Below are positions 5,438 to 31,040 of a stretch of 41,407 nucleotides of DNA, piece by piece; the stretch's first letter is position 1; every line of letters starts with the position of its first letter. The stretch lies in NCBI GenBank assembly GCA_029884335.1, contig JAOUIA010000032.1, forward strand, positions 1-41,407, written 5' to 3'. This DNA comes from Betaproteobacteria bacterium (GTDB lineage Bacteria > Pseudomonadota > Gammaproteobacteria > Burkholderiales > Casimicrobiaceae). The position numbers and the translations under genes are program-made. The notes beneath the pieces were generated by a model. It made no database searches. It was not told where the DNA came from and saw only the letters and a program-made list of their open reading frames with translations.

Positions 5438-5448
5438 CGGCGCGTCAG
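5434..5448. terminator. Palindrome containing both convergent stop codons
   Basis: CTGACG-GCG-CGTCAG is a perfect 6-bp inverted repeat. It contains the TGA of the antiporter gene on the plus strand and the TGA of the channel gene on the minus strand. It may act as a weak bidirectional hairpin, but no T-tract follows on either side. Confidence 0.35.
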
Positions 5449-9259: not shown

Positions 9260-9322
9260 CCGTCTCCTGTGCCACAGACGGCCGCCGGCCCAACCGACCG
9301 GTTGACATGCACCCGGCGGCCG
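9260..9322 (-). promoter_or_regulatory. Structured hsp20 5' leader, possible RNA thermometer
   Basis: On the minus strand the predicted leader begins with CGGCCGCCGG (9322-9313), which pairs exactly with 9288-9279 around an inner AACCG/CGGTT hairpin. Next to the start codon, CCGTCT (9281-9276) pairs exactly with AGACGG (9265-9260), and that stem takes in part of the AGGAGA ribosome-binding site. Small heat-shock genes in proteobacteria are often controlled by thermometers such as ROSE or fourU. This does not match a named class by eye, so the role is inferred. Confidence 0.45.
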
Positions 9323-9329
9323 CAGCATA

Positions 9330-9370
9330 AGAATACCCCCGCTGCGCGCCTGCGTATTGCCCGCGGTCAA
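9330..9370 (-). promoter_or_regulatory. FNR-like box and -10 for hsp20 (box A)
   Basis: The 14-bp box at 9357-9370 reads TTGCC-CGCG-GTCAA on the plus strand and TTGAC-CGCG-GGCAA on the minus strand, against the family pattern TTGAY-N4-RTCAA. A -10 hexamer TATTCT occupies 9335-9330 on the minus strand, 21 nt from the box. That spacing is what class II FNR/ANR promoters show (box centred near -41.5). The predicted transcription start, about 9322, coincides with the base of the leader hairpin. Confidence 0.6.
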
Positions 9371-9439
9371 CGAACGGCGCGATGGTGCGCTCGGTTTGCG
9401 GCAGGCAACGCGCGCTCCCCCGCGCCACAGCTCGCGGGC

Positions 9440-10594
9440 CTACCCGAGACGCTCGTCGAGCCCCGGCGCCACCGGAGCGTAGGAGTGCGCTGCGAGGACG
9501 GCCGCGTCCAGTTCCGCGGCCCACCCGGGACCCTCAGGGGCGACGAACGCCCCGTCCACCAGCTGCGGCTCCACGCCGCCGACGACGTCGCGCGCGAGGT
9601 CGCTCTCGCCCAGCTGGTACTCGAGACTGTCGACCGCGGGCGCCGCCAGCGCGACGTGCAGGCTGGCCAGCGTGCACACCGGCCCGGTGGGGTTGTGCGG
9701 CGAGAAGAGCACGCCGTGCCCCTGCGCGAACGCCGCAATGCGCAGCATCTCGACGGGACCGCCGCAGTACTTCACGTCCGGCATGATCGCGTCGACGCGG
9801 CGCGGCAGGGCGAAGGGGCGGAATCCGTCCACCGCCGTCTGCCGCTCGCAGGCTGCAACGAGGATGCCGCGCTCGTTCGCCGCCTGCCTGATGCGCGCGA
9901 GCGCGTCGTGCGCGTGCGGCTGCTCGGAGACCGGGCACTCGAACCAGTGAATGCCCGCCGTCGCCAGCCGATCCAGCACGCGCAGCGCCGTCGGCTCGTC
10001 GAAGCGCCAGTGACAGTCGACCATCAGGCGCGGCAGCGGGCCCACTGCGGCGCGCATCGCCTCGACGCGCGCGACTCCAGCCTCGATCGCCCGCCGCGTC
10101 GCGGGCTCGTGCAGCGCGTCCGGCAGCACGCCGTCGAAAGGCGCGATCTTGACCGCGCGAAAGCCGCGCTCGACCGCCGCGCGCGCGCTCGCCGCGCAGC
10201 CTTCGGGCGAGCGGTCGCGGGTCGCGCGGTTGACGTTGGCGTACACCGGAACACGGTCGCGGCGGCGCCCGCCGAGCAGCTGCCACGCGGGCACGCCGGC
10301 CGCCCGTGCCCGCGCATCGACGAACGCCTGGCGGATGGCGCTGCGCACCGCGTGGCCGACGAGACCGGTGGGGGCGTGCGGATGCGTCGCCAGCGCCGGA
10401 TGGTCGTCGTCGAGCGGCGCGCCGAGCAGCAGCGGACGCAGCTGCGCGAGGCACGCTTCCAGCAGCGGCTCGTGGCCGTTGAGGGAAGCCTCGCCGATCC
10501 CTTCCACGCCCTCGTCCGTGCGCACGCGCACGAAGTGCCAGTTGGTGCGCTCGTTGACGTGCAGCGTGCGGGACTCGACGGCGGCGACGCGCAT
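9440..10594 (-). CDS. Mandelate racemase/muconate lactonising enzyme family protein
   Basis: This 384-residue enolase-superfamily protein would abstract a proton next to a carboxylate, as a sugar-acid dehydratase, racemase or cycloisomerase. The capping domain (1-110) is followed by the barrel. Candidate active-site residues are K149 (AVKIAPF), metal ligands D193 (MVDCHW), E219 (WFECPVSE) and E250 (AACERQ), and H300 in SPHNPTGP. Only one Lys is seen where some members have a KxK pair. I chose ATG 10594 because the upstream extension runs through the divergent promoter. It is divergent from a TctC-type binding protein gene, which suggests that the two may handle the same organic acid. The substrate is not assigned. 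Confidence 0.85.
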   Translation of the reverse strand: MRVAAVESRTLHVNERTNWHFVRVRTDEGVEGIGEASLNGHEPLLEACLAQLRPLLLGAPLDDDHPALATHPHAPTGLVGHAVRSAIRQAFVDARARAAGVPAWQLLGGRRRDRVPVYANVNRATRDRSPEGCAASARAAVERGFRAVKIAPFDGVLPDALHEPATRRAIEAGVARVEAMRAAVGPLPRLMVDCHWRFDEPTALRVLDRLATAGIHWFECPVSEQPHAHDALARIRQAANERGILVAACERQTAVDGFRPFALPRRVDAIMPDVKYCGGPVEMLRIAAFAQGHGVLFSPHNPTGPVCTLASLHVALAAPAVDSLEYQLGESDLARDVVGGVEPQLVDGAFVAPEGPGWAAELDAAVLAAHSYAPVAPGLDERLG

Positions 10595-10595
10595 G

Positions 10596-10624
10596 TTGAC
10601 AGTTTGCCGAAGGCGGACGATAAA
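10596..10624 (+). promoter_or_regulatory. Sigma-70 promoter for the TctC gene
   Basis: A perfect -35 TTGACA (10596-10601), a 17-nt spacer, then GATAAA (10619-10624) as -10. This is the clearest housekeeping promoter in the window. It starts 2 bp from the divergent enolase-family start codon, so the two genes share one control region. Confidence 0.7.
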
Positions 10625-10653
10625 CTCGCCCGATTCTAAGCCCGGGAGCACCA

Positions 10654-11622
10654 ATGCGCCTCGCCGCCGCCATCCTCGCCGCCACCTGCGCGCTGCTCGC
10701 GCCGCCCTCGTTCGCGCAAGGCGCGTATCCGCAGAAGCCGATCCGGCTCATCGTGCCGAGCCCCCCGGGCGACGGCTCGGACCTGATGGCGCGCGCGATC
10801 GGCGACAAGCTGACGCAGGCGCTCGGCCAGCCGATCGTCGTCGACAACCGCCAGGGTGCGGGCGGCCGCGTGGGCACCGAGGCCGCGGCCAAGGCCGCGC
10901 CCGACGGCTACACGCTGATCATGGGCAACGCCGGCTCGCACGGCATCAACGCCGCGCTGTACCGCGACCTCCCCTACGACATCGAGCGCGACTTCGTCGC
11001 GATCACGCAGGTGATGCGGGCGCCCAACGTGCTGGTCATCAACCCGTCGCTGCCTGCGAAGAGCGTCGCCGAGTTCATCGCGCTGCTCAAGGGCAGTCCC
11101 GGCAAGTACAGCTACGGGTCGGGCGGCAACGGCAGCTCCGCGCACTTCACCGCCGAGCTCTTCAAGTCGATGGCCGGCGTGGACATCGCCCACATCCCGT
11201 ACAAGGGCGCGACCCCCGCGCTCACCGACGTGATCGGCGGGCAGGTCGCCATGTTCATGGGCAACCTCCCGCCGGCGATGGGCCACATCAAGGCCGGGCG
11301 CGTGCGCGCGCTCGCGGTGACCACCGCGCAGCGCTCGTCGCTCGTGCCCGACCTGCCGACGATCGCCGAGGCGGGGCTGCCCGGCTTCGAGACCGTCGCC
11401 TGGTTCGGGCTGTTCGCACCGGCGGGCACGGCGCCCGAGATCGTCGTGCGCCTGCGCGACGAGGTGGCGAAGATCGTGCAGCAGCCCGACATCCGCGAGC
11501 GCATCGTCACGCTCGGCGGCGAGCCGGTCGGCAACACGCCTGCCGAGTTCGCCGCCATCGTGCGCGGGGACGTCGCCAAGTGGAAGGGCGTGGCCAAGGC
11601 GGCGAACATCGTCGCGGACTAG
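10654..11622 (+). CDS. Bug/TctC-family periplasmic solute-binding protein
   Basis: The 322-residue protein begins with a signal peptide (MRLAAAILAATCALLAPPSFAQG, cleavage probably after SFA, near residue 21). The mature part opens with YPQKPIRLIVPSPPGDGSD, the hallmark of Bug proteins, and has the family segments PDGYTLIMGN and HIPYKGATPAL. These bind small carboxylates or similar compounds in the periplasm, usually for the tripartite tricarboxylate transporter TctAB. No tctA or tctB is nearby; orphan Bug proteins are very numerous in Burkholderiales. It has its own strong promoter and is divergent from the enolase-family gene. Confidence 0.92.
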   Translation: MRLAAAILAATCALLAPPSFAQGAYPQKPIRLIVPSPPGDGSDLMARAIGDKLTQALGQPIVVDNRQGAGGRVGTEAAAKAAPDGYTLIMGNAGSHGINAALYRDLPYDIERDFVAITQVMRAPNVLVINPSLPAKSVAEFIALLKGSPGKYSYGSGGNGSSAHFTAELFKSMAGVDIAHIPYKGATPALTDVIGGQVAMFMGNLPPAMGHIKAGRVRALAVTTAQRSSLVPDLPTIAEAGLPGFETVAWFGLFAPAGTAPEIVVRLRDEVAKIVQQPDIRERIVTLGGEPVGNTPAEFAAIVRGDVAKWKGVAKAANIVAD

Positions 11623-11636
11623 CTGGCCGCGTGCCC

Positions 11637-12905
11637 TCAGCGCGGGGCAAGCCGGCGTCTCGAGACCCTGCCCCCCGGCGGCAGCAGGCCCCGCAGCATC
11701 TGCTCGCACGTCGCCGCCGACATGTAGCGCGGCACCGGGTAGCTGGTGTCGGCCTCCCAGCAGGCCGCGCCGGCGAGCGCCGGAATGTCCTCCGCCCGCA
11801 ACGGTTCGACGCACGACGGGATGCCGATGTCGCGGTTGAGCACGTCGATCGACGCGATGAACTTCTTCGCGAGCGCGGCCGGCCGCTCGCGTTCGCTACC
11901 CACGCCGGCGCGCAGCGCGAGCGCCGCGAGCCGGCTCGTGACGGCAGGCGCCAGGAAGCGCAGCACGTGCGGCAGCACGATCGCGTTGGCGAGTCCGTGC
12001 GGCACGTGGTACTTCGCGCCGAGCTGGTGGGCGATCGCGTGCACGTAGCCCACGTTGGCCCGCGTGAACGCGAGGCCGCCGTACGCCGCCGCGAGCGCCA
12101 TCTGCTCGCGCGCCTCCAGGCTGCGGCCATTCCGGACCGCGCGGCGCAGGTGCGCGAAGACGAGCCCGACGCACGCGAGCGCCATGCGGTCGGACTGCGG
12201 CGTGGCCCACTGGCCGAGGAACGCTTCGATGGCGTGGGTGAGCGCATCCATCCCGGTCGCCGCCGTCACGTGCTTCGGCAGCCCCGTCATCAGCGCCGCG
12301 TCGAGCGCCGCCATCGCCGGAACGAGGCGCGTGTCGGCGATCACGAGCTTGCGCTCGGCATCCGGATCCGAGATCACCGCGGCGACGGTCACCTCGGAGC
12401 CCGTGCCCGCCGTCGTCGGGACCGCATAGAGCGGCTCCGGCGGGCGCAGGCCCCGGAAGTAGCCGACCAGCTTGCGCGGGTGCTTGCCGTTGCCCACGGC
12501 GTGCGCGATCGCCTTCCCCGCATCCATCGGCGATCCGCCCCCGAATGCGACGACGGCGTCGCAGCGCCGCTCCCGGTAGAACGCGATGCCCCGCTCGATC
12601 TGGGGGATCGGCGCATCGGGCGAGACATCGTCGAAGACGACGTGCCGTACACCGCCCGCCGACAATGCCTTCACCAGCGCGCCCGGAAGTCCCAGGCCCG
12701 CGACCCCCCGGTCCGTGACGATCAGGACGTTCCGATGCCCGAAGCCTGCGATCGCCTGCCCCAGCCGGGCACTCGATCCGGGGCCCACCAGCAGCACCGG
12801 CTGCGGAATCGGCAGCATCCCCGTCACCACGCCGGCCGCCCGCATCGCCGTCGACAACCCGACCGACCGTACGACCGTCCCCACGACGCCTGCCATCGCG
12901 ACCAT
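11637..12905 (-). CDS. Iron-containing alcohol dehydrogenase family protein
   Basis: This 422-residue protein belongs to the group III (iron-type) alcohol dehydrogenases, which interconvert aldehydes or ketones and alcohols with NAD(P)H. It shows the nucleotide-binding loop AFGGGSPMDAGKAIA, the TTAGTGSEVT motif, and metal-binding regions around GMDALTHAIEAF and VPHGLANAIVLPH. An N-terminal extension of about 30 residues precedes the usual beginning. ATG 12905 has GGAGG six bases upstream. It is divergent from the acyl-ACP-reductase-like gene, which would produce an aldehyde, so it may reduce that product to an alcohol; this is inference. Its promoter does not have the FNR-like geometry. Confidence 0.88.
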   Translation of the reverse strand: MVAMAGVVGTVVRSVGLSTAMRAAGVVTGMLPIPQPVLLVGPGSSARLGQAIAGFGHRNVLIVTDRGVAGLGLPGALVKALSAGGVRHVVFDDVSPDAPIPQIERGIAFYRERRCDAVVAFGGGSPMDAGKAIAHAVGNGKHPRKLVGYFRGLRPPEPLYAVPTTAGTGSEVTVAAVISDPDAERKLVIADTRLVPAMAALDAALMTGLPKHVTAATGMDALTHAIEAFLGQWATPQSDRMALACVGLVFAHLRRAVRNGRSLEAREQMALAAAYGGLAFTRANVGYVHAIAHQLGAKYHVPHGLANAIVLPHVLRFLAPAVTSRLAALALRAGVGSERERPAALAKKFIASIDVLNRDIGIPSCVEPLRAEDIPALAGAACWEADTSYPVPRYMSAATCEQMLRGLLPPGGRVSRRRLAPR

Positions 12906-12985
12906 CCCGCGCCTCCGAAGCGCACTGCGAACGCCGACAGCTTGCGCCTTCCCGCAGGCCGGCGCAGCGCTGCCGCGCCTGCTTG

Positions 12986-13052
12986 TCGACCAGGATCAAG
13001 GGCGCGTCGACGCAGGCGCGGCTTACTTGCAGGTGCGGCGGACACGCGCCGC
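12986..13052 (+). promoter_or_regulatory. FNR-like box and leader hairpin before the reductase-like gene (box B)
   Basis: The box at 12986-12999 reads TCGAC-CAGG-ATCAA, one mismatch from TTGAC-N4-ATCAA. A weak -10 (CTTACT, 13022-13027) lies 22 nt downstream. A GCGGCG-GACACG-CGCCGC hairpin at 13035-13052 would sit at the predicted 5' end of the transcript. Geometry favours the rightward gene, not the alcohol dehydrogenase. Confidence 0.45.
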
Positions 13053-13072
13053 GGGTTGCGGACGAGGGCGTC

Positions 13073-15160: not shown

Positions 15161-15225
15161 GGCGACCGTCCTGAGGTAGGCTTGCAGGCGGCCCCGATCC
15201 GGCCGCCGACCTTGGGGGGATGACG

Positions 15226-17538: not shown

Positions 17539-17540
17539 CG

Positions 17541-20000: not shown

Positions 20001-20076
20001 GGCGCGATGATACCGGCGCCCGGACGCGTAGGAGCGCGTCCCCCGGCGGCGAGACTCCTCGCCGCCTGCACGCAGG

Positions 20077-20160
20077 CTGACCCGGATCAAGCGCCCGCGG
20101 CCTCCCGGTGTCAGGATTGAGGGCTGCCGCGCTGCTGCAGCAGAAGCAGGCTGTGCCTGC
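20077..20160 (+). promoter_or_regulatory. FNR-like box and leader before pncB (box C)
   Basis: The box at 20077-20090 reads CTGAC-CCGG-ATCAA, one mismatch from the consensus. A -10-like CAGGAT (20112-20117) lies exactly 21 nt downstream. The predicted leader contains CTGCTGCAGCAG and a GCAGGC-TGT-GCCTGC hairpin (20146-20160) ahead of the start codon at 20191. Confidence 0.5.
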
Positions 20161-20190
20161 CGCGCGCGACCATCCGGCCAGGGCGACTCG

Positions 20191-21531
20191 ATGACCCCAG
20201 CGGGCGCGCTACTCACCGACCTCTACGAGCTCACCATGCTCGAGGCGTACCGGGCGGAGCGCATGCGCGGCACGGCAGTGTTCGAGATGTTCGTGCGCGC
20301 GCTGCCCCCGCAGCGGCGCTTCCTCGTCGCCGCCGGGCTCGCGCAGGTCGTGGACGAGCTCCTGGCCCTGCGCTTCACCGCCGGCGACCTCGCGTGGCTC
20401 GCCTCGACCGGGCGCTTCCGTCCGGACTTCCTCGAGTGGCTGCAGGGCTTCCGCTTCACCGGCGACGTCGACGCGCTGCCCGAGGGCACCGTGTTCTTCG
20501 CCGACGAGCCGCTGCTGCGCGTGAGCGCGCCCATCCACGAGGCCCAGCTCGTGGAAAGCCGCGTCCTCAACCTGCTGCACTACGAGACGATCGTGGCGAG
20601 CAAGGCGGCGCGCTCCGTCCTCGCCGCGTGCGGCAAGCCGCTGATCGACTTCGGGATGCGCCGCGCGCACGGTGCGGAAGCCGCGCTGCTGTCGGCGCGC
20701 GCGAGCTACCTCGCCGGCTTCGCCGGCACCGCGACGGTCGAAGCCGGGCGCCGATACGGCATCCCGGTCTACGGCACGATGGCGCACTCCTACGTGCAGG
20801 CGCACGCGACCGAGACGGAGGCCTTCGAGGCCTTCGCGCGCGCGCAGCCGCGCAACGCGGTCCTGCTGATCGACACCTACGACACCGAGCGCGGTGCGCG
20901 CAGGGTCGTGGAGCTTGCCCGGAGGCTGGCCCCCGAGGGGCTCCCGATCAGGGGCGTGCGCATCGACAGCGGCGACCTCGCCGAGCACGCGCGCCGCGTC
21001 CGGGCGATCCTCGACGACGGAGGCTTCCCCGCGATCACGATATTCGCCAGCGGGAATCTCGACGAGCACCGCATCGCCGATCTCGCGGCAGCGGGCGCGC
21101 CGATCGACGGCTACGGCGTCGGCACGCGCATGAACACCTCGGCGGACGCGCCCTATCTCGACTGCGCCTACAAGCTGCAGGAGTACGACGGCTTGCCGCG
21201 CCGCAAGCGTTCGGAGGGCAAGGCGACGTGGCCGGGGCGCAAGCAGGTCTACCGGCAGCGCGACGCGTCCGGTGCCTGGACGGGCGACGTGGTCACGCTC
21301 GCGTCACAGCCCCTCGACGGCCAGCCGCTGCTGGCGCCCGTGCTGCGCAATGGGCGACTCCTGCGCGCCATGCCGACCCTGCAGGACTCCCGGGAGCGAG
21401 CCAGCCGCGAGATCGCCGCGCTCCCGCCGGCGCTGCGCCGGCTGGAACCCGCCGGACCCGGGGAAGCGGTCGCGGCGCGGATTGCCGAGCCGCTGCGAGC
21501 ACTCGCCGCCGAGCTGGACGCGTCGGCCTGA
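20191..21531 (+). CDS. pncB: Nicotinate phosphoribosyltransferase
   Basis: PncB joins nicotinate to PRPP to form nicotinate mononucleotide, the entry step of NAD salvage. The 446-residue protein opens LLTDLYELTMLEAYRAERM, a family signature. It has H199 in GTMAHSYVQ (the His phosphorylated during catalysis in this family), RIDSGDL and GVGTRMNTS, where the ribose-phosphate is held. The rest, including YKLQEYDG and KATWPGRKQVYR, fits bacterial PncB. It converges with the GroEL gene (6-nt gap). An FNR-like box lies upstream. The second salvage enzyme, PncA, is encoded at 27390-28025 and also lies behind such a box. Confidence 0.93.
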   Translation: MTPAGALLTDLYELTMLEAYRAERMRGTAVFEMFVRALPPQRRFLVAAGLAQVVDELLALRFTAGDLAWLASTGRFRPDFLEWLQGFRFTGDVDALPEGTVFFADEPLLRVSAPIHEAQLVESRVLNLLHYETIVASKAARSVLAACGKPLIDFGMRRAHGAEAALLSARASYLAGFAGTATVEAGRRYGIPVYGTMAHSYVQAHATETEAFEAFARAQPRNAVLLIDTYDTERGARRVVELARRLAPEGLPIRGVRIDSGDLAEHARRVRAILDDGGFPAITIFASGNLDEHRIADLAAAGAPIDGYGVGTRMNTSADAPYLDCAYKLQEYDGLPRRKRSEGKATWPGRKQVYRQRDASGAWTGDVVTLASQPLDGQPLLAPVLRNGRLLRAMPTLQDSRERASREIAALPPALRRLEPAGPGEAVAARIAEPLRALAAELDASA

Positions 21532-21537
21532 ACGAGG

Positions 21538-23154
<1,617 letters not shown>

Positions 23155-23189
23155 CGCCATCTCCCGTGATCGCGGTATTGCGCTTGATC

Positions 23190-23230
23190 AGCATGCGCCT
23201 TGCGCGCCCGGACCTCTTGCCCTCGATCAA
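23190..23230 (-). promoter_or_regulatory. FNR-like box and -10 for the groEL paralogue (box D1)
   Basis: The box at 23217-23230 reads TTGCC-CTCG-ATCAA on the plus strand, thus TTGAT-CGAG-GGCAA toward groEL. A -10-like CATGCT at 23195-23190 (minus strand) lies exactly 21 nt away. A weaker half-matching site, TTGCG-CTTG-ATCAG (23178-23191), overlaps the predicted start of transcription. Confidence 0.5.
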
Positions 23231-23281
23231 GCGTCGTCGCTCAGGGCGCCCGGCGGCAGCCCCGCACGCTCGCGCCGACGC

Positions 23282-23323
23282 TTGCCCGCGATCAACGCCC
23301 CGCTCCTTGCGCCGCCGCAGACT
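23282..23323 (+). promoter_or_regulatory. FNR-like box before the Lon-like protease gene (box D2)
   Basis: The box at 23282-23295 reads TTGCC-CGCG-ATCAA, 65 bp from box D1, so the divergent groEL and protease genes each have one. A weak -10-like CAGACT (23318-23323) lies 22 nt downstream. The protease start codon is at 23379. Confidence 0.5.
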
Positions 23324-23378
23324 GACCGCATCGGATGGAGCCGCCGCGACCGCGCGCACGGCCTTCGGGAGCTTGCTC

Positions 23379-25847
23379 ATGACGCAGGGCGAAACGCAGC
23401 GCGATCCCGACCTGCCCGCGGGGCGCATGGCGCCGGAACGACTGGCCCGGCGCTGCGAGGCCGGCGCCATCCCCTTCGAGACCACTGCCGGGATCGACGA
23501 CGGCGGCGAAGTTCTCGGCCAGCGACGCGCGATCGCGGCGATCGAATTCGGCATCGGCATGCGCGACGAGGGCTACAACCTCTTCGCGATGGGTGCCGAA
23601 GGCGTGGGCAGGCGGACGCTGGCTCGCCGTTTCCTCGACCGCGCCGCGGCAGCCCGCCCCGTCCCCGCCGACTGGTGCTACGTGTTCAACTTCCGCGTCC
23701 CGCACCGGCCGACCGCCATCGCCCTGCCCGCCGGCCGCGGCGCGGCGTTCCAGCAGGACATGGCGCGCCTCGTCGACGACCTGCGCGCGGGCATTCCGGC
23801 AGCCTTCGAGGCCGACGAGTACCGCAACCGCCGCCAGGAGATCCTGAACGACCTCTCCGAGCGGCAGGAATGCGCGATCCGCGCGATCGGCGACCGGGCG
23901 CGCGAGCAGGGCATCGGGCTGCTGCGCACGCCCGGCGGCTTTGCGTTCGCGCCGCTCAAGGGCGACGAGGTCATGCCGCCCGAAGCGTTCCAGGAGCTCG
24001 GCGACGAGCAGCGCTCCGCGATCGAGAACCGCATCGCGGCGCTGCAGAAGGAGCTCGAGCGCGTCATCGAGGAGATGCCGAAGTGGCGGCGCGAAGCGCA
24101 GCACAGGCTGCGCGAGCTGGACCGCCAGGTCACGCGCAGCGTGATCACCGGCCTCATCGACGAGATCGTCGCGGCCTACCGCGACGTCCCCGCCACGCAG
24201 CGCTACTTCGACGGCCTGCGCGAGGACGTGCTCGACAATGCACAGCACTTCCAGCAGCCGAAGGAAGGCGAGGCGCACGCGCTGCTCGGGCTGCTCGGCG
24301 CGCGGCCGGACGCGGGCGACGCCGCGTTGCGGCGCTACGCCGTGAACCTGCTGATCGAGCATCCCGCGGCGGGAAGCGCCCCCGTCGTCGACGAGGACAA
24401 CCCCACGCACGACGCGCTCGTGGGGCGCATCGAGCACGTCTCCCAGCTCGGCGCGCTGGTGACCGACTTCACGATGATCAAGGCCGGCGCCCTGCACCGT
24501 GCCAACGGCGGCTACCTGATCGTCGACGCGCTGAAGCTCCTCTCCCACCCGCTCGCGTGGGAGGCGCTCAAGCGCGCGTTGCGATCCCGGGAGGTGCGCG
24601 TGGAGTCGCTCGGGCAGGCGCTCGGGCTGATCAGCACGCAGGCGCTGGAGCCCGAGCCGGTCCCGCTCGACGTCAAGGTCGTCCTCGTGGGGCAGCCGCG
24701 CCTCTACCACCTCCTGCACGCGCTCGACCCCGAGTTCGCCAAGCTCTTCAAGGTGGCGGTCGACTTCGAGGACGACGTCGAGCGCACCGCGGAGACGGAA
24801 GCGGGCTACGCGCGCCTGATCGCGTCGATGGCGGGCGCCCACGCGCTCCGCCCCCTCGATCGCGCGGCGGCGGCGCGCGTCGTCGAGCAGGCCTCGCGCG
24901 CGTGCGGCGACGCCGAGCGCCTCTCGGTCGCCATGGAGCCGCTGCTCGAGGTGCTCCGCGAAGCCGACCACTGGGCGGGCCTCGCCGGCCGCGACGTGAC
25001 CTCGGCCGCCGACGTCGACGCCGCGCTCGGCGCGAGGCTGCGGCGCGCCGACCGCATCCCGGCTCGCCTGCGCGAGGAGATGATGCGCGGCCGGCTGCTC
25101 GTCGCGACGTCGGGTGGCCGCGTGGGGCAGGTCAACGGGCTCTCGGTGGGCGACTTCGGCGGCGTGCTGTTCGGCATACCGGTGCGCATCACCGCACGCG
25201 TGCGCCTGGGCGGCGGCAGCGTGGTCGACATCGAGCGCGAGGCCGAGCTCGGCGGGAGGATCCACTCCAAGGGCGTGATGATCCTCGCCGGCTACCTCGC
25301 CGCGCACTACGCGCCGCGCTACCCGCTCTCGCTGGCGGCCACGCTGGTCTTCGAGCAGACGTACGGCACCGTCGAAGGCGACAGCGCGTCGTGCGCCGAG
25401 CTCTGCGCGCTGCTGTCTGCGCTTGCCGACGTGCCGGCCTCCAACGCGATCGCCGTCACCGGATCGGTCAACCAGCACGGCGAGGTGCAGGCCGTGGGCG
25501 CGGTGAACGAGAAGATCGAAGGCTACTTCGACCTCTGCCGGCTGCGCGCGCTCGACGGCAGCCAGGGCGTCGTCGTCCCGGCGGCGAACGCAGCGCAGCT
25601 CATGCTGCGCGAGGACGTCGTCGACGCCGTGGCCCGGGGGCTTTTCGCGGTCCACGCCGTGCGCACCGTCGACGAGTGCCTGGAGATCCTCGCGGGGACG
25701 CCCGCCGGCGAGCGCGACGCGCTCGGCCGCTTCCCTGCCGGGACGCTCAACGCGCGGATCGAGGAGCGCCTGGCCGACTACGCCGTGCGGGCGCGCACGT
25801 TCGCCGTGCCTGGGCCGCGCCGCGGCAAGCGGGGCGAGCGGTCATGA
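23379..25847 (+). CDS. Lon-like ATP-dependent protease (LonB/AAA_32 type)
   Basis: This 822-residue protein would unfold and degrade substrates in the cytoplasm. A short N-terminal part leads to a degenerate Walker A, GAEGVGRRT at 72-80, with Arg where Lys is usual, and a Walker B-like YLIVDALKLL lacking the usual Glu. The C-terminal Lon protease domain carries the catalytic dyad S669 (EGDSAS) and K712 (VNEKIEG); the 43-residue spacing equals that of E. coli Lon. It resembles the heat-shock-linked AsrA-type proteases of Pseudomonas more than LonA. ATG 23379 is chosen because GGGAG sits 8 nt upstream; the frame is open back to 23166 but that stretch holds the FNR-like boxes. It is coupled to the next gene by an ATGA overlap. 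Confidence 0.9.
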   Translation: MTQGETQRDPDLPAGRMAPERLARRCEAGAIPFETTAGIDDGGEVLGQRRAIAAIEFGIGMRDEGYNLFAMGAEGVGRRTLARRFLDRAAAARPVPADWCYVFNFRVPHRPTAIALPAGRGAAFQQDMARLVDDLRAGIPAAFEADEYRNRRQEILNDLSERQECAIRAIGDRAREQGIGLLRTPGGFAFAPLKGDEVMPPEAFQELGDEQRSAIENRIAALQKELERVIEEMPKWRREAQHRLRELDRQVTRSVITGLIDEIVAAYRDVPATQRYFDGLREDVLDNAQHFQQPKEGEAHALLGLLGARPDAGDAALRRYAVNLLIEHPAAGSAPVVDEDNPTHDALVGRIEHVSQLGALVTDFTMIKAGALHRANGGYLIVDALKLLSHPLAWEALKRALRSREVRVESLGQALGLISTQALEPEPVPLDVKVVLVGQPRLYHLLHALDPEFAKLFKVAVDFEDDVERTAETEAGYARLIASMAGAHALRPLDRAAAARVVEQASRACGDAERLSVAMEPLLEVLREADHWAGLAGRDVTSAADVDAALGARLRRADRIPARLREEMMRGRLLVATSGGRVGQVNGLSVGDFGGVLFGIPVRITARVRLGGGSVVDIEREAELGGRIHSKGVMILAGYLAAHYAPRYPLSLAATLVFEQTYGTVEGDSASCAELCALLSALADVPASNAIAVTGSVNQHGEVQAVGAVNEKIEGYFDLCRLRALDGSQGVVVPAANAAQLMLREDVVDAVARGLFAVHAVRTVDECLEILAGTPAGERDALGRFPAGTLNARIEERLADYAVRARTFAVPGPRRGKRGERS

Positions 25848-26677
25848 GATTTCGGCGCATCGTCGCCGCGCTGGACACGGCGCGGCCGGCGGCCCTTGGC
25901 ACGGCCATCGGGCTCGCCCGCGCCCTGGAGGCCGAACTGGTCGGCCTGTTCGTCGAGGACGCCGAGCTGCTCGACCTGGCCGCGCTTCCGTTCGGGGAGG
26001 TCGGCTACCTCTCGCCGATGCGGCGCGAGCTCGACGTGGGACGAATGGAGCGCGGATTGCGGGCGAAGGCCCGGCGCATCGAGCAGCAACTCGGTTCGCA
26101 CCTCGCCGGCCTGCCGGTGAAGTGGTCGTTCGAGGTGGTGCGCGGGCGCTTCGCCGCGGCCGTGACGACGATCGCGACGGCCGACGACATCGTCGTGGTG
26201 GCCACCCCGCACGGCGCCACCATCGGGTCGGGCCGCGGCGCGGACCTCGCGCAGGTGTTCCGTGCCCTGCGCTCGCCGGTGCTCGTGGTTCGCGATCCCT
26301 TGCCGGCCGCCGGCCGCCTGGCGGTGATCGTCATGCAGCGATCGCCCGACGAAGCTGCGCGCGCGATCGCGGCGTTCGCGCCCAGCCACGGCAATTCCGC
26401 GCTGATCGCCCTCGAGGGGCGCGAAGAGGAAGAGCCTCAGCCTGGAATGCACGATCTCGAGCGAATGCTCGCCAGCCGCGGCGTCCGCGTCGGCACGCGC
26501 GTGCTCCCCCGCCGCACGCGCGCCTCGCTCGAGCGCCTGCTCGCCGAGGAGCCGCAGGCAGTCGTCGTCGTGACGGCGGGATCGCGCGAGGCGCGAAGCG
26601 AGCTGCTCGACCTGCTCCCCTGCCCCGTCCTCGTGCTGCCGGAGCTCGCGCCCGACGCCACCGACGAGCGCCGGTGA
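25844..26677 (+). CDS. Tandem universal-stress-protein-like protein
   Basis: The 277-residue protein begins FRRIVAALDTARPAALGTAIGLARALEAEL, the Usp fold's first strand and helix. Its first half ends in IVVVATPHG and SPVLVVRD, the usual end of a Usp domain. The second half (about 155-277) repeats the pattern more weakly, ending CPVLVLPEL, so it is probably a degenerate second Usp unit. The usual ATP-binding Gly-rich loop is poorly kept. Its start overlaps the stop of the Lon-like gene (ATGA), so the two are translationally coupled and probably act together. The role of this pair is not known to me; the protein may tune or guide the protease. Confidence 0.75.
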   Translation: MRFRRIVAALDTARPAALGTAIGLARALEAELVGLFVEDAELLDLAALPFGEVGYLSPMRRELDVGRMERGLRAKARRIEQQLGSHLAGLPVKWSFEVVRGRFAAAVTTIATADDIVVVATPHGATIGSGRGADLAQVFRALRSPVLVVRDPLPAAGRLAVIVMQRSPDEAARAIAAFAPSHGNSALIALEGREEEEPQPGMHDLERMLASRGVRVGTRVLPRRTRASLERLLAEEPQAVVVVTAGSREARSELLDLLPCPVLVLPELAPDATDERR

Positions 26678-26731
26678 CGGCGCACGACCGCGGGTTGCGC
26701 CGGCCCGGCGCGCGGGTCTTCGGGGAGGTCG

Positions 26732-26772
26732 TTGACAGCCGTCAATGGGGCGTGTCGCCCCCGGCGTAGATT
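26732..26772 (+). promoter_or_regulatory. Perfect FNR/DNR-like palindrome and -10 before usp (box E)
   Basis: TTGAC-AGCC-GTCAA at 26732-26745 is a perfect palindrome of the FNR/DNR/NNR type. The -10 hexamer TAGATT (26767-26772) begins exactly 21 nt downstream. The predicted start of transcription is about 26779-26780. Confidence 0.65.
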
Positions 26773-26778
26773 GGGATC

Positions 26779-26840
26779 GGTGCCTGGGACATGCGATGCG
26801 CCCGGCCGCGCGCGGCGCCGGGCGCATGGCTGCAGGCACC
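26779..26840 (+). promoter_or_regulatory. Nested hairpin at the predicted 5' end of the usp-pncA mRNA
   Basis: An outer stem, GGTGCCTG (26779-26786) with CAGGCACC (26833-26840), encloses an inner stem, ATGCGCCCGGC (26796-26806) with GCCGGGCGCAT (26817-26827). All 19 base pairs are exact. The structure begins at the predicted transcription start. A 5'-terminal hairpin of this kind could protect the mRNA from RNase E or RppH, or act as a regulatory leader. Confidence 0.55.
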
Positions 26841-26905
26841 GAAGGCTGCGCGCGGGTTGCCGGCGAGCCGTTCCGCATCGCCGGGACGACTACGGGAGAT
26901 CCTAC

Positions 26906-27352
26906 ATGTACAAGCGCATCCTCATCGCAACCGACGGGTCCGATCGTTCGCCCAAGGCGATCGCGGAAGGGATCGCGGTCGCGAAGGCGCACGGCGCCGC
27001 CGTGGTCGGCTTCCACGCACGTCCTCCGGCACCGCCGCTCTACTACGGCGAAGTGGCGGTCATGGTGCCGCGCGACGTCACCGAGGCCTTCGAAAAGGAG
27101 AGCGTGGCGACCGCCGAGCGCTACGTCGCGGCGATTGCCGGAGCCGCGAAGCAGGCAGGCGTCCCGTTCACGGGCCTGCAGTACCCGAGCGCATCGCCCG
27201 CCGACGCCATCCTCGAGACGGCCGAGAAGGAGAAGTGCGACCTCATCGTAATGGCGTCGCACGGCCGCAAGGGCCTGGCGCGGGTCGTGCTCGGCAGCGA
27301 GACCGTCAAGGTCCTCACGCACTCCAGGGTGTCGGTGCTCGTGACGCACTGA
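26906..27352 (+). CDS. Universal stress protein (UspA family)
   Basis: This 148-residue protein is a typical single-domain Usp. It opens YKRILIATDGSDRSPKAI and ends in the nucleotide-binding loop ASHGRKGLARVVLGSETVKVL. That loop fits the G-2x-G-9x-G(S) pattern, except that the first Gly is Ala. It closes with the final strand VSVLVTH. Such proteins bind ATP or AMP and support survival under starvation, hypoxia or other stress. ATG 26906 follows GGGAGA. It is preceded by a perfect FNR/DNR-like palindrome and a long leader hairpin, and followed after 37 nt by pncA, probably in one operon. Confidence 0.93.
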   Translation: MYKRILIATDGSDRSPKAIAEGIAVAKAHGAAVVGFHARPPAPPLYYGEVAVMVPRDVTEAFEKESVATAERYVAAIAGAAKQAGVPFTGLQYPSASPADAILETAEKEKCDLIVMASHGRKGLARVVLGSETVKVLTHSRVSVLVTH

Positions 27353-27389
27353 GCCCGGGCGGCCGGGACGCACGGCCGCGCGGCAGCGC

Positions 27390-28025
27390 ATGGGCATAGT
27401 CACTACGCCGCGCGACGTCCTGCTCGTCGTCGACCTGCAGAACGACTTCCTGCCGGGCGGCGCGCTCGAGGTGCCCGATGCCGGCGCGGTGGTGCCGCTG
27501 GCCAATCGGCTGGCGGGGGCGTTCGCGCACGTGCTGCTGACGCAGGACTGGCACCCGCCCGGCCATCGCTCGTTCGCCTCGGGCCACGCCGGCCGCGTGC
27601 CCTTCGAGGTGGTCGAACTGGACTACGGGCCGCAGGTGCTGTGGCCGGATCACTGCGTGCAGGGCACGCGGGGAGCGGAGTTCGCCGCGTCGCTCGCGAT
27701 CCCGCAGGCCGAGCTGGTCATCCGCAAGGGCTGCCGTCGCGACGTCGACAGCTACTCCGTGTTCTGCGAAGCGGATCGCAGGACGCGCACGGGCCTCGCC
27801 GGCTACCTGCGCGAGCGCGGCTTCACGCGCGTCTTCATCGCGGGGCTCGCGACCGACTTCTGCGTGGCGTGGTCGGCGCTGGACGCGCGCGCGGACGGTT
27901 TCGACGCGCTCGTCGTCGAGGACGCGTGCCGCGCGATCGACAAGGGCGGCTCGCTGGCCGCCGCGTGGGAGCGCATGAGAGCTGCGGGCGTCGCGCGGGT
28001 CAGGACCACGGACTTCCCCGCCTGA
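27390..28025 (+). CDS. pncA: Nicotinamidase
   Basis: PncA hydrolyses nicotinamide to nicotinate and ammonia, feeding PncB in NAD salvage. The 211-residue protein has the isochorismatase-fold catalytic set: Asp in VVDLQNDFLPGGAL, metal-site residues in TQDWHPPGHRSF, Lys in VIRKG, and the nucleophilic Cys in GLATDFCVAWSA. LWPDHCVQGTRGAEF and VDSYSVF are characteristic of true nicotinamidases. It lies 37 nt after usp on the same strand with no terminator between, so it likely shares the FNR-like promoter. A general isochorismatase-family hydrolase is the less likely alternative. Confidence 0.92.
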   Translation: MGIVTTPRDVLLVVDLQNDFLPGGALEVPDAGAVVPLANRLAGAFAHVLLTQDWHPPGHRSFASGHAGRVPFEVVELDYGPQVLWPDHCVQGTRGAEFAASLAIPQAELVIRKGCRRDVDSYSVFCEADRRTRTGLAGYLRERGFTRVFIAGLATDFCVAWSALDARADGFDALVVEDACRAIDKGGSLAAAWERMRAAGVARVRTTDFPA

Positions 28026-28056
28026 CCGCCTCGAGCGGTGGCAGGTGCCGTTCAGG

Positions 28057-28085
28057 CAAGCAAAGGGCCCGCGGTCTCGCAGGCC
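28057..28085 (-). terminator. Intrinsic terminator of tRNA-Arg
   Basis: On the minus strand the tRNA is followed by GGCCTGCG-AGAC-CGCGGGCC (28085-28066, one G-U pair) and then CTTTGCTT. It lies 11 nt beyond the tRNA 3' end and between the convergent pncA and tRNA genes. Confidence 0.6.
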
Positions 28086-28095
28086 CCTGGGTGAT

Positions 28096-28172
28096 TGGCG
28101 CGCCCGGCAGGATTTGAACCCACGACCCCCTGGTTCGTAGCCAGGTACTCTATCCAACTGAGCTACGGGCGC
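28096..28172 (-). tRNA. tRNA-Arg(ACG)
   Basis: The 77-nt minus-strand gene folds into a full cloverleaf. The acceptor stem is GCGCCCG with CGGGCGC, the anticodon stem CCTGG/CCAGG with loop CTACGAA gives anticodon ACG, and the T-loop is GTTCAAATC. CCA is encoded (28098-28096). The A of the anticodon is normally edited to inosine by TadA, letting it read CGU, CGC and CGA. Confidence 0.96.
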
Positions 28173-28182
28173 GAAGCAGGGG

Positions 28183-28188
28183 ATTATA
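28183..28188 (-). promoter_or_regulatory. -10 hexamer of tRNA-Arg
   Basis: On the minus strand this reads TATAAT, a perfect -10 hexamer 10 nt upstream of the tRNA 5' end. The -35 region (TTACGG, 17 nt further upstream) is weak. Confidence 0.6.
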
Positions 28189-28285
28189 TCAGCGGGCGTC
28201 CTGTCCCGTAAGTTCCGCAGAAACGGGAGCGGATGAGCTCCGCCGGCGAGCCAGGGGCGCGGCCGATGCCAATGCCGGTGTGACG

Positions 28286-28307
28286 AAGTGGCCGAGCAAC
28301 GCCACTT
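28286..28307 (-). terminator. Hairpin downstream of the PLD-family gene
   Basis: AAGTGGC (28286-28292) and GCCACTT (28301-28307) form a 7-bp stem with an 8-nt loop, about 50 nt beyond the stop of the PLD-family gene. It could end that transcript before the tRNA-Arg promoter. No T-tract follows. Confidence 0.4.
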
Positions 28308-28356
28308 GGCGGCCGATCTCGCTTCGGGCTGCCGAGCGAACTTGCGGGACGGGACG

Positions 28357-29901
28357 CTACTTCGGAGGCCCGCCGACGCGGTCCCCGGCGCCCTCACCGC
28401 GCGCCAGTACCTCCGCCTCGCGCACCGACTCCTCCGCCGCGTGCTCGGCGGCGTGGCGCCGCGCCGCGCGATGCAGTCCCCACGCCTTGCCGAGCCAGGC
28501 GAGCCCCATCCATGCCGCGAACACGGCCGCCGGCCAGGCGAGGACGGCCGGCCACATTGCGCCCACGGCGCCGAGTGCGATGGCGGCCACGGCCATCTTC
28601 GCCAGCAGGCCCGATTCCGCCGGGCCGAGCGCCCGGCGGTTGGTCAGCGCGGCGCCGAGCGCGCTCCCCACGCTCACCGCGCCGGCCGCGGCGCGCCCTG
28701 CGCTGCCCGAAGGCGCGCGGCGCACCGCTTCGCCGTCGTCGTGCCGCCGGTCCGCGCGGCGCACGCGGTTGCCGGCGGTGAGCACGATCTCGGTGGAGTC
28801 GCGCAAGTCGCGCTCGAACTGCTCGGCTGTCGCGCGGGCGAACGCCTCGTCCTCGATGGCGACGTCGAGTTCGTAGTTGCCGAGGAAGCTCGCCAGGTTG
28901 AGGTTCGTCGAACCCACCCTCGCCCACTGGTCGTCGGCGACCGCCGTCTTCGCGTGCAGCATCGTGCCGTTCCACTCGAACACGCGCACGCCCTTCTCCA
29001 GGAGCACGCGATAGCCGGCTCGCGACAGCACGGAAACCGCGGGCAGGTCGCTCGCGCCGGGCACGAGCAGGCGCACGTCCACGCCGTCGCGCGCAGCGGC
29101 CACCAGCGCCTGCACGTAGGGCGCGGTGCCGACGAAGTAGGCGTCGGTGAGCCACAGGCGCTCGCGGGCGATGGCGGCGATCATCAGGTCGAGGCGCAGC
29201 ACGCCGGCACCGCTCGGCTGGCCCTGGATCACGCGCACGCGCGTCGTGCCCGCACGGGGGATCGCCGCGACGGGCGTGAGCAGCTCCACGGGCAGCGGAC
29301 CCTCGTCGCACGCCTCCCACACGCGGGCGAACGCGTGCTCGAGCTCGGCCACGGCCGGGCCGCGGATCTCGACACCCGTGTCGCGCCACGGCTCGAGGCG
29401 CTTCTCCGGGCGGCCGAGCCACTTCGCCGACACGCACAGGCCCGACACGAAGCCGACGTGCCCGTCGATCGCGATCATCTTGCGGTGGTCGCGCGTCGTC
29501 CAGCCGAGCGGGCTCGCGAACTGGAACGGATTGAACGCGGCCACGCGCACGCCCGCCTCGCGCAGCGGGCCCCACAGCGCGTCCGAGCGGAACGAGCCGA
29601 GCCAGTCGTAGATCACATAGACGTGCACGCCGTCGCGCGCCCGGTCGGCGAGCGCGCGCGCGAACTCGTGGCCGACCTCGTCGTCCTCGACGATGTAGCA
29701 CTCGAACAGGATCAGCCGCTGCGCTCGGCGGATGGCGTCGAGCCAGGCGGGGAAGTTCTCGCGCGCGTCGAGCAGCATGCGCGCCGCATTGCCTTCCGAG
29801 GATTGCGCGCCCGTCGCGCGGCCGAACGCCCGGGTAGCCAGCGCGATGACGTCGGCGTCGAGCGCGTCGGCGTAGGGGCGACCGAGCGGCGGGCGAGGCA
29901 C
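28357..29901 (-). CDS. PLD-superfamily phosphatidyltransferase, cardiolipin-synthase-like
   Basis: The 514-residue protein has two HKD motifs: DHRKMIAID (H139, K141, D146) and LHAKTAVAD (H316, K318, D323, followed by GSTNLN). That pair is the active site of cardiolipin synthases and related phospholipase D enzymes. A ClsB-like role is likely: there is no N-terminal membrane hairpin, and the start is GTG. Unusually, a hydrophobic segment occurs near the C-terminus (about residues 430-475, MAVAAIALGAVGAMWPAVLA and on), followed by a basic and then acidic tail. The gene has no FNR-like box and is divergent from a GDSL hydrolase, 45 nt away. Other phospholipid transphosphatidylations are possible. 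Confidence 0.85.
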   Translation of the reverse strand: MPRPPLGRPYADALDADVIALATRAFGRATGAQSSEGNAARMLLDARENFPAWLDAIRRAQRLILFECYIVEDDEVGHEFARALADRARDGVHVYVIYDWLGSFRSDALWGPLREAGVRVAAFNPFQFASPLGWTTRDHRKMIAIDGHVGFVSGLCVSAKWLGRPEKRLEPWRDTGVEIRGPAVAELEHAFARVWEACDEGPLPVELLTPVAAIPRAGTTRVRVIQGQPSGAGVLRLDLMIAAIARERLWLTDAYFVGTAPYVQALVAAARDGVDVRLLVPGASDLPAVSVLSRAGYRVLLEKGVRVFEWNGTMLHAKTAVADDQWARVGSTNLNLASFLGNYELDVAIEDEAFARATAEQFERDLRDSTEIVLTAGNRVRRADRRHDDGEAVRRAPSGSAGRAAAGAVSVGSALGAALTNRRALGPAESGLLAKMAVAAIALGAVGAMWPAVLAWPAAVFAAWMGLAWLGKAWGLHRAARRHAAEHAAEESVREAEVLARGEGAGDRVGGPPK

Positions 29902-29946
29902 GTTGGGCGGGCGGCTGGCAGCGACACCCTACGGTACCATGCCCCG

Positions 29947-30570
29947 ATGGCATTGCCCGTTCCGCGTCGCCGCTTCCTCGCGTCGCTGGGCGCGCTCGTG
30001 CTCGCGGCGTGCGCGCCCGACGCGCGGCACGCTGCGTTGCCGCGCGGGGCGCGCGTGATCGCGTTGGGCGACAGCCTGACCTACGGCACCGGCGCGTCGC
30101 CCGCGGAAAGTTGGCCGGCGCTGCTCGCGCAGCGTTCGGGTTGGCAGGTGGAGAACGCCGGCGTGCCCGGCGAGACCGCGGCGCAGGCGTGCGAGCGTCT
30201 CCCCGACCTGCTGGCGGCGAATCGTCCTGCGCTCGTGCTCGTGCTGGTCGGCGGCAACGACTTCCTCCGGCGCACGCCCGATGCGGGCGTGCGGGACGCG
30301 CTCGCGGCCTGCGTCGCGGAGGCGCGCGCCGCCGCGGTGCCGATCGTCCTGCTTCCGGTGCCGCGGCTCGGCGTCGGAGGATTGGCCAACGCCCCGCTCT
30401 ACGCGGAGGCGGCGAAGTCGCTTGGCACTCCCCTCGTCGACGCGGGCCTCGCCGACGCATTGGCCAAGCCTGCGCTGCGCGCCGACGCCGTGCATCCGAA
30501 CGCCGCCGGCTACCGAGCCGTGGCCGAGCGGATCGGCGCGGGGCTCGCCAAGCTCGGTTTCCTGCGCTAG
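29947..30570 (+). CDS. GDSL/SGNH-family esterase, probable lipoprotein
   Basis: The 207-residue protein resembles the TesA-type arylesterase/lysophospholipase group of SGNH hydrolases. Block I is IALGDSLTYGTGA with nucleophile S43, block III is GGND, and block V is DAVHPNAAGY with the catalytic Asp and His. The N-terminus RRRFLASLGALVLAAC has a twin Arg and a lipobox ending at C22, so it is probably exported and lipid-anchored; whether by Tat or Sec is unsure. It may hydrolyse lysophospholipids or acyl esters in the envelope. It diverges from the PLD-family gene, and its stop overlaps that of hpf: CTAG (30567-30570) is read as TAG on both strands. Confidence 0.87.
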   Translation: MALPVPRRRFLASLGALVLAACAPDARHAALPRGARVIALGDSLTYGTGASPAESWPALLAQRSGWQVENAGVPGETAAQACERLPDLLAANRPALVLVLVGGNDFLRRTPDAGVRDALAACVAEARAAAVPIVLLPVPRLGVGGLANAPLYAEAAKSLGTPLVDAGLADALAKPALRADAVHPNAAGYRAVAERIGAGLAKLGFLR

Positions 30571-30917
30571 GCCGTGGTTCCGCGCGCCGTTGCGTGCTGC
30601 TTGACGCGGCCGCGCACGACTTGCGTGTGCTCGTCGGTCTCCCGCACCGCGACGTCGAACGCGTCGCGCAGCGCCACGTACACGTCCTCGTGGCGGTCGC
30701 GCGTGATCGCGATCTCGTGGCCGGGCACGCGCAGGTCGATGCGCACGGAGAACTCGCGCCCCTGGTGGCTGTGCCGGTGGGGCGAGTCGACGGTCACCGT
30801 GCAGCTGACGATGCGCCGCCCGAGCGCCTCGAGCTTCGCGACGTGGTCGCGGATCTTCGCCGTGAGGGCCGGCGAGGCGGGAATGTTGCGGAGCGTGATC
30901 TGGAGGGGAACTTGCAT
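30567..30917 (-). CDS. hpf: Short ribosome hibernation promoting factor (S30AE family)
   Basis: The 116-residue protein begins MQVPLQITLRNIPAS and continues with LTAKIRDHVAKLEAL and a core ending in EDVYVALRDAFDVAVRE, the single S30AE domain of HPF/RaiA (YfiA)-like proteins. These bind the 30S decoding centre and hold ribosomes inactive during starvation or dormancy. The C-terminal dimerisation domain of long HPF is absent. ATG 30917 is chosen because GGAGG sits 8 nt upstream; ATG 30923 is only 2 nt from it. A perfect FNR-like palindrome lies upstream. It is not next to rpoN, where the housekeeping hpf usually is, so this is probably a second, stress-specific copy. Confidence 0.85.
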   Translation of the reverse strand: MQVPLQITLRNIPASPALTAKIRDHVAKLEALGRRIVSCTVTVDSPHRHSHQGREFSVRIDLRVPGHEIAITRDRHEDVYVALRDAFDVAVRETDEHTQVVRGRVKQHATARGTTA

Positions 30918-30997
30918 TGACATCGCCTCCGTTTCGGGGGTCGGACCCGCCGCCTCGCTCGGAGATGCCACGCCGCGGCGCCGGCCCCTCACTTGTC

Positions 30998-31040
30998 ACG
31001 ATACGTCTCCCCGGGGCGCGCCTGGATTGACGGGCGTCAA
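30998..31040 (-). promoter_or_regulatory. Perfect FNR/DNR-like palindrome and -10 for hpf (box F)
   Basis: TTGAC-GGGC-GTCAA at 31027-31040 is a perfect palindrome, matching box E in both half-sites. Toward hpf, the minus strand shows TATCGT at 31003-30998, 23 nt from the box. The opposite direction would serve the tetR-type gene, over 230 nt away, which is less likely. Confidence 0.6.

Follow-up and report, generated by a model that had tools for sequence, protein, structure and literature searches.

The window analysed here is the whole 41,407-base stretch (guanine–cytosine (GC) content 0.72) of contig JAOUIA010000032.1, part of a 3.66-Mb draft genome of 120 contigs from a betaproteobacterium. 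Within 22 kb it carries seven FNR-type boxes, each ahead of one unit: hsp20, an acyl-reductase-like gene, pncB, a GroEL paralogue, a Lon-like protease gene with usp2, usp1–pncA, and hpf (Table 1). Boxes were counted as matches to TTGAY-N4-RTCAA, either exact or with at most one mismatch. All seven lie where an earlier note on this DNA had placed them, those at 26732 and 31027 being exact and the other five carrying one mismatch, and their intergenic location is borne out by a codon-usage gene caller trained on the window's genes, which called 30 genes and left 8.9% of the window intergenic. The two exact boxes had been described as perfect palindromes, which is true of both 5-base arms but not of the 4-base spacers.

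Each box had also been said to precede a stress or survival gene. This stands for hsp20, pncB, the GroEL paralogue, the Lon-like gene, usp1–pncA and hpf; for the reductase behind the box at 12986, a survival role is a guess. The reductase has no Pfam match, its first ~300 residues match no family, and its partial similarity to PigE and to acyl-ACP (acyl carrier protein) reductase lies below curated cut-offs. The Lon-like gene is as claimed, but its partner, named as a universal stress protein (Usp), is only distantly Usp-like: the usp2 protein itself has no Pfam match up to E 0.1, and two of its six scanned homologues pass the Usp cut-off. The GroEL paralogue is 65% identical to the host genome's other GroEL match (contig C103), and no groES-sized gene was called beside it. 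Across the exact box from hpf lies a divergent TetR-family regulator gene (31274–31894), with no −10 element toward it at FNR spacing.

Table 1. Boxes and genes of the seven units (window positions).
Feature	Position	Strand	Basis or associated −10-like hexamer
FNR-type box TTGACCGCGGGCAA for hsp20, one mismatch	9357..9370	-	TATTCT 21 bases downstream
hsp20, small heat-shock protein	8821..9258	-	PF00011 match (scanned from upstream GTG) and gene call
FNR-type box TCGACCAGGATCAA for acyl-reductase-like gene, one mismatch	12986..12999	+	TTACTT 23 bases downstream
AAR/PigE-like reductase, 695 residues	13073..15160	+	matches from residue ~306 onward, below curated cut-offs
FNR-type box CTGACCCGGATCAA for pncB, one mismatch	20077..20090	+	weak CAGGAT 21 bases downstream
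pncB, nicotinate phosphoribosyltransferase	20191..21531	+	domain and family profile matches
FNR-type box TTGATCGAGGGCAA for GroEL paralogue, one mismatch	23217..23230	-	CATGCT 21 bases downstream; nothing on + strand
GroEL paralogue	21538..23160	-	family profile matches and gene call
FNR-type box TTGCCCGCGATCAA for Lon-like/usp2 operon, one mismatch	23282..23295	+	CAGACT 22 bases downstream; nothing on - strand
Lon-like protease	23379..25847	+	LonC helical, LonB-type AAA and Lon_C domains
usp2, 277 residues, distantly Usp-like	25844..26677	+	overlaps Lon-like gene by 4 bases
Exact FNR box TTGACAGCCGTCAA for usp1–pncA	26732..26745	+	TAGATT 21 bases downstream
usp1, universal stress protein	26906..27352	+	Pfam match (scanned from upstream TTG) and gene call
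pncA, nicotinamidase	27390..28025	+	family profile matches
Exact FNR box TTGACGCCCGTCAA for hpf	31027..31040	-	TATCGT 23 bases downstream; nothing on + strand
hpf, short hibernation-promoting factor	30567..30917	-	Pfam Ribosomal_S30AE over cut-off (scanned from upstream GTG); NCBIfam TIGR00741 below cut-off

Promoter architecture and number of the boxes

At every one of the seven boxes a −10-like hexamer follows 21–23 bases further on, in the direction of the box's stress gene. Scored with an E. coli-like matrix, these hexamers reach 8.5 (hsp20), 8.1 (usp1), 6.8 (hpf), 4.2 (reductase), 2.8 (groEL), 2.6 (lon) and 2.2 (pncB). The mean score peaks at 5.0 in the bin 20–24 bases past the box, with 1.2 in the next best bin and values below −2 in 11 of the 14 bins; resampled intergenic positions did not reach this peak once in 20,000 trials. 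Since directions had been chosen, the test was rerun with the better direction taken at every box and at every random position; the observed 5.0 then stood against a null mean of −0.55 and was again reached in 0 of 20,000 resamplings. Read in the opposite direction, the hsp20 box scores 0.6 and the other six fall below −2. The divergent groEL–lon region shows the same polarity on a small scale, the box at 23217 having a −10 element toward groEL only and that at 23282 toward lon only. By their sequence and spacing, the seven boxes thus show the predicted architecture of class II FNR promoters, in which the site is centred near −41.5, and because a box is paired with a correctly spaced −10 element at all seven, the objection that five of the boxes are imperfect is largely answered.

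The number of boxes is a less telling quantity than their placement. With one mismatch allowed, eight matches occur in the window, compared with a mean of 0.67 and a maximum of 4 in 100 dinucleotide shuffles of the window, and the binomial probability that at least seven of the eight fall in the intergenic share is 3e-7. The eighth, at 24468 and absent from the earlier note, falls within the Lon-like gene, with a −10 element in neither direction. Measured against the genome's own density, the window has 8 matches where 2.5 are expected (P 0.004) and 2 exact boxes where 0.33 are expected (P 0.04); for the 21.7-kb stretch, the P value multiplied by the count of such stretches in the genome is ~0.01. 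The window is therefore richer in boxes than the genome at large, but less dramatically so than against shuffles, and given this modest enrichment the best evidence is box position and promoter context rather than box number.

Recurrence and gene order in relatives

Homologues of each protein were sought across 119 genomes, the window's own included, and boxes were counted within 300 bp upstream with the window excluded, some genomes contributing two loci; the families covered were hpf, hsp20, Lon-like, pncB, reductase and GroEL. The earlier note had proposed looking for boxes upstream of these genes in relatives, and recurrence is far above chance, though exact boxes occur at a minority of loci in each family. 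Exact boxes precede 13 of 29 hsp20 homologues (0.07 expected by shuffling), 9 of 26 hpf homologues (0.02), 5 of 26 Lon-like homologues (0.00; locus L048, in which the gene start is missing, is left out) and 2 of 13 pncB homologues (0.00), the last two boxes lying at −124 in genome G015, a genus-mate, and at −111 in genome G073. The hsp20 and GroEL counts rest on the best 30 loci of longer match lists. None of the five reductase homologues has an exact box, but three have one at a single mismatch (0.02 expected), letter-identical to the window's in G015 and similar in G009 and G025; ahead of hsp20, too, G015 has a box with one mismatch, spaced almost as in the window. The same −10 peak, 20–24 bases on, reappears over the 31 exact boxes of the homologues (4.3, all other bins below 0). 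No more than five of the 119 genomes, counting the window's own, have the reductase-like gene itself; in the other four its identity is 72–85%, and it is patchy within the family.

Only one of 29 GroEL homologue loci has a box within 300 bp, and most of these loci are probably ordinary GroEL. The close orthologues in G016 (81% identity) and G004 (80%) are each second in line, behind a CBS-domain-like gene. Here the exact box is 596–600 bp upstream of groEL, before the CBS-domain-like gene and beside a divergent gene. A set of named Lon-like loci that had not been selected for boxes (the best 80 of 586) yields 7 exact boxes within 300 bp upstream versus 0.46 expected from the remainder of those sequences, and 15 versus 3.66 at up to one mismatch. 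The closest matches in this set include two, at 59–60% identity, labelled as Betaproteobacteria and Burkholderiales metagenome genomes.

The description of the locus as an island is borne out in one respect and contradicted in another: subsets of the units cluster repeatedly in other genomes, but the G015 homologues, in a draft assembly, carry their boxes on five contigs. These hold the reductase (C1), hsp20 (C6), pncB (C9), hpf (C15), and the GroEL-like gene together with a CBS–Lon–usp2 group (C21), with exact boxes at pncB, hpf and CBS–Lon–usp2 and one-mismatch boxes at the reductase, hsp20 and the GroEL-like gene, whose product, only 54% identical, may be a different paralogue. Since the boxes are kept on separate contigs, packing is not needed for co-regulation, and the conserved thing is the regulon.

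Clustering takes several forms. In G073 a pncB–Lon–usp2–hpf row stands behind one exact box, and in G068 and G117 hsp20, the Lon-like gene and hpf lie together. Locus L095 (1887–13299) holds hsp20, groEL, pncA, pncB, the Lon-like gene and hpf in 13 kb; a scan of this cluster for boxes found none exact and one near match before hsp20, and perhaps another regulator took over there. A Cupriavidus sp. USMAHM13 plasmid (NZ_CP017753.1, locus L260, 4590–24000) carries usp–ftsH, pncB, the Lon-like gene and hsp20 within 18 kb, along with alanine dehydrogenase, with exact FNR-type boxes ahead of the annotated usp and hsp20 genes and an IS30 transposase gene between the Lon-like gene and hsp20. Among 93 Lon-like loci, 13 of them gathered apart from the 80, the companions are usp2 (44), usp1 (10), hpf (9), pncB (8), hsp20 (6), groEL (4) and pncA (2), in counts affected by the many loci that stop at contig ends and by genomes that may recur. 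The usp2-like partner mostly lies directly 3′ of the Lon-like gene, in records labelled Chloroflexi, Chlorobiaceae and Polyangiaceae too, and the pair is, as judged from gene order, a conserved two-gene unit. Twelve Lon-like neighbourhoods of relatives contain 14 exact boxes against 1.75 expected from genome density, a figure biased by the 5 of 12 already known to have one. Genes at locus L053 were called with the window's codon table. The gammaproteobacterial locus L141 (2157–22246), picked afterwards as the richest of the 80, has 8 exact boxes in 22 kb (0.3 expected), around genes for Usp, thioredoxin, an encapsulated-ferritin-like protein and wax ester synthase.

It is possible, if on balance doubtful, that the units are true members of an FNR regulon that lie within 22 kb only by accident, their closeness carrying no significance in itself. 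Such an accident would suit the boxed but dispersed homologues of G015 (a 30-contig draft, in which contig ends may hide linkage), a box density only modestly above the genome's, and the unrelated genes between the units, which the earlier note had remarked on and which Pfam matches identify as metabolic. It sits poorly with the renewed clustering of subsets in G073, G068, G117, L095 and the Cupriavidus plasmid, and with the box surplus in the 12 Lon-like neighbourhoods, even with its bias. A mobile genomic island was considered and rejected, as the Pfam results of the 30 window genes (two of them without a match) include no integrase, transposase or other mobile gene and GC content is unshifted, remaining flat at 0.69–0.74 along the window. 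Elsewhere in the window, a sodium/proton exchanger gene (3680–5437) and a mechanosensitive channel gene (5445–6971) are convergent neighbours, each encoding a C-terminal cyclic-nucleotide-binding domain.

Genome-wide sites and candidate regulators

The genome-wide scan that the earlier note had suggested gave 29 exact TTGAY-N4-RTCAA sites against 1 for the reversed pattern used as control, and 218 against 59 at up to one mismatch. The narrower TTGAT-N4-ATCAA alone occurs at a single site, and the looser TTGM-N6-KCAA was dropped for want of enrichment (117 sites against 155 in the reversed control). Elsewhere in the genome, 26 of the 27 exact sites could serve a gene that starts no more than 350 bp away; none of the 27 lies wholly within a called gene, and two (L161 and L162) overlap a gene end by 4 bases. 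The 36 directed promoters of these sites show a weaker −10 peak, 2.0 at 20–24 bases, with all other bins below 0. Ten of their 33 distinct neighbours, picked by eye since their first residues looked like low-oxygen genes, were scanned with Pfam and comprise NrdD, POR, HemN, a CBS protein, a CcoI-like ATPase, a Usp, a ferredoxin-type oxidoreductase, a NiFe hydrogenase small subunit, a multihaem cytochrome and FeoB; at least the part scanned resembles an anaerobic regulon of the ordinary kind. On contig C29 (26907–27091), three exact boxes lie in 185 bp between two divergent genes, one of which encodes the ferredoxin-type oxidoreductase.

Seven CRP/FNR-type proteins in the genome exceed the family cut-off. 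One, L016, matches solved FNR with an E-value of 3e-57, and the alignment places an N-terminal C-x2-C-x5-C motif and a later cysteine in register, so that L016 has the four cluster cysteines together with an FNR-type recognition helix. In FNR, these cysteines hold the iron–sulfur cluster and residues of the recognition helix read the DNA site. The best match of L020 is the DNR structure 3dkw (2.5e-33), and L021 (C89:13709), judged by eye, carries a recognition helix like that of FNR, with a pair of nearby cysteines in its sensor domain, making it a possible third user of the boxes. The identification of the boxes as FNR/ANR-type sites is very probably right, given promoter spacing, genome-wide enrichment, recurrence in relatives and an encoded FNR, and on the same promoter, genome-wide, relative and FNR evidence one type of regulator probably activates all the units, as the earlier note had supposed.

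Which member of the family acts on the boxes is something that sequence alone cannot tell as between FNR and DNR. We regard it as unlikely that their main user is the DNR-like protein or L021, with its apparent E-x-x-S-R helix, the signal then being nitric oxide (NO) or another cue and not oxygen. Both proteins are encoded, L021 with a similar helix by eye, and DNR sites resemble FNR sites; but exact sites elsewhere in the genome precede nrdD, hemN, hydrogenase and feoB genes, which are typical FNR targets, and FNR responding to oxygen is for this reason likelier than DNR responding to NO.

A predicted anoxic-survival regulon and its known counterparts

The boxes, their positions, the promoter architecture, the enrichment across the genome, the recurrence in relatives and the presence of FNR are observed, and with them it is highly probable that the seven units belong to the genome's FNR regulon, are driven by class II promoters and form an anoxic-survival sub-regulon, to which FNR binding, activation, an oxygen signal and a survival role would belong. 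In the absence of oxygen, FNR proteins keep their cluster, bind DNA and activate genes. In this genome, a drop in oxygen would let FNR retain its [4Fe-4S] cluster and dimerise; the dimer would bind the TTGAY-N4-RTCAA boxes centred near −41.5, contact sigma-70 RNA polymerase over the −10 element 21–23 bases further on, and turn on all seven units within 22 kb. HPF might then park the ribosomes of the non-growing anoxic cell; Hsp20, GroEL and the Lon-like protease with its Usp-like partner might hold or remove damaged proteins; and PncA followed by PncB might rebuild nicotinamide adenine dinucleotide (NAD) from nicotinamide. The gene products point to maintenance, not growth, and dormancy is a hypothesis.

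Several observations weigh against an FNR sub-regulon of seven units. Five of the seven boxes carry a mismatch, and the 218 one-mismatch-level sites set against 59 in the control imply that roughly a quarter of such sites genome-wide arise by chance. Three units, pncB, groEL and lon, have weak −10 hexamers (2.2–2.8), the matrix behind all these scores is modelled on E. coli, and the two groEL–lon boxes were paired with their genes by the author after inspection of the sequence. Within 300 bp of most homologues there is no exact box (Lon-like 21 of 26, pncB 11 of 13, hpf 17 of 26, hsp20 16 of 29, reductase 5 of 5), as is also true of 28 of 29 GroEL loci, most of them probably ordinary GroEL. 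In G015, the reductase promoter has no −10 element at FNR spacing, the groEL-like −10 is weak (1.8) and a second reductase copy (72% identity) has no box. It is nevertheless very improbable that the one-mismatch boxes are chance and FNR control is limited to usp1 and hpf: exact boxes are indeed found only at 26732 and 31027, strong −10 hexamers only at usp1, hpf and hsp20, and one-mismatch sites are partly noise, but all seven boxes are paired with a −10 element at the right spacing, and G015 has an exact box at pncB and before CBS–Lon–usp2 and keeps the same one-mismatch box at the reductase.

The cluster resembles in spirit two known systems, and the closest is the lxa locus of Burkholderia cenocepacia J2315 (BCAM0275–BCAM0323), which in another betaproteobacterium groups low-oxygen genes with Usp and heat-shock proteins. 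According to the excerpted accounts, lxa is involved in anoxic persistence, and the Anr-like CRP/FNR protein BCAM0049 has been proposed as its oxygen-sensing regulator (PMC6127331, PMC9104464, PMC3759415). It differs in comprising ~50 genes, among them acetoacetyl-CoA reductase, phosphate acetyl/butyryl transferase, alcohol dehydrogenase and six Usp genes, and the partial table of its proteins names no Lon-like protease, pncB, GroEL paralogue or hpf (PMC6127331). Set beside the lxa proteins of that table, the window has Usp and heat-shock proteins in common by type. In the same excerpts, B. cenocepacia strain H111, which has no lxa, still survives anoxia (PMC9104464, PMC3759415), and loss of both anr copies is lethal to it under anoxia (PMC9104464). 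In transposon sequencing of H111, a gene for nicotinate phosphoribosyltransferase is among those scoring for fitness under anoxia, and of the table rows listed for anoxic survival its first-column value is the most negative (PMC9104464), which fits the pncB part of the cluster.

Two further regulons share elements of the design. In the Fnr regulon of the betaproteobacterium Herbaspirillum seropedicae, the fnr1 site is centred at −42 of a class II promoter, and the most highly expressed genes activated by Fnr include usp genes; the targets given in the excerpt are respiratory-chain and usp genes, not Lon-like, pncB, hpf or chaperonin genes (PMC5934665). For Candidatus Accumulibacter, an FNR motif with matching expression is reported for nar, nos, cco, hemN, uspA and pta, and the excerpt describes no survival cluster (PMC6446978). 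Among the literature matches listed (titles and abstract starts), no account was found of FNR controlling a cluster of hpf, pncB/pncA, Lon-like–usp2 and a GroEL paralogue. An FNR sub-regulon of a recognised type is thus well supported, with a gene set (hpf, pncB/pncA, Lon-like–usp2, GroEL paralogue) not met as FNR-controlled among those matches. On sequence evidence, ribosome hibernation, NAD salvage and a Lon-like protease together with its conserved partner are tied to a classical oxygen sensor, in relatives as well as here; the cluster also yields a short list of promoters and genes for testing.

The second system is the DosR regulon of mycobacteria, to which the likeness would be one of analogy, not of membership. 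DosR is another regulator with another DNA site, and the mycobacterial hibernation factor RafH is under its control. To our knowledge, little has been mapped of how non-growing bacteria other than mycobacteria survive anoxia. The DosR regulon includes six Usp proteins (PMC2914252), and RafH is induced by hypoxia (PMC10799931), as stated in the excerpts of both sources. We tentatively suggest, with somewhat less than even confidence, that the window may represent a widespread proteobacterial counterpart of DosR: an FNR-controlled growth-arrest module of hpf, pncA/pncB, the Lon-like protease with its Usp-like partner, Hsp20 and the GroEL paralogue, whose members would keep the oxygen switch while gene order reshuffles among scattered promoters, compact clusters and single operons, sometimes on plasmids. 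If so, ribosome hibernation and NAD salvage would be direct outputs of oxygen sensing in this counterpart of the mycobacterial system.

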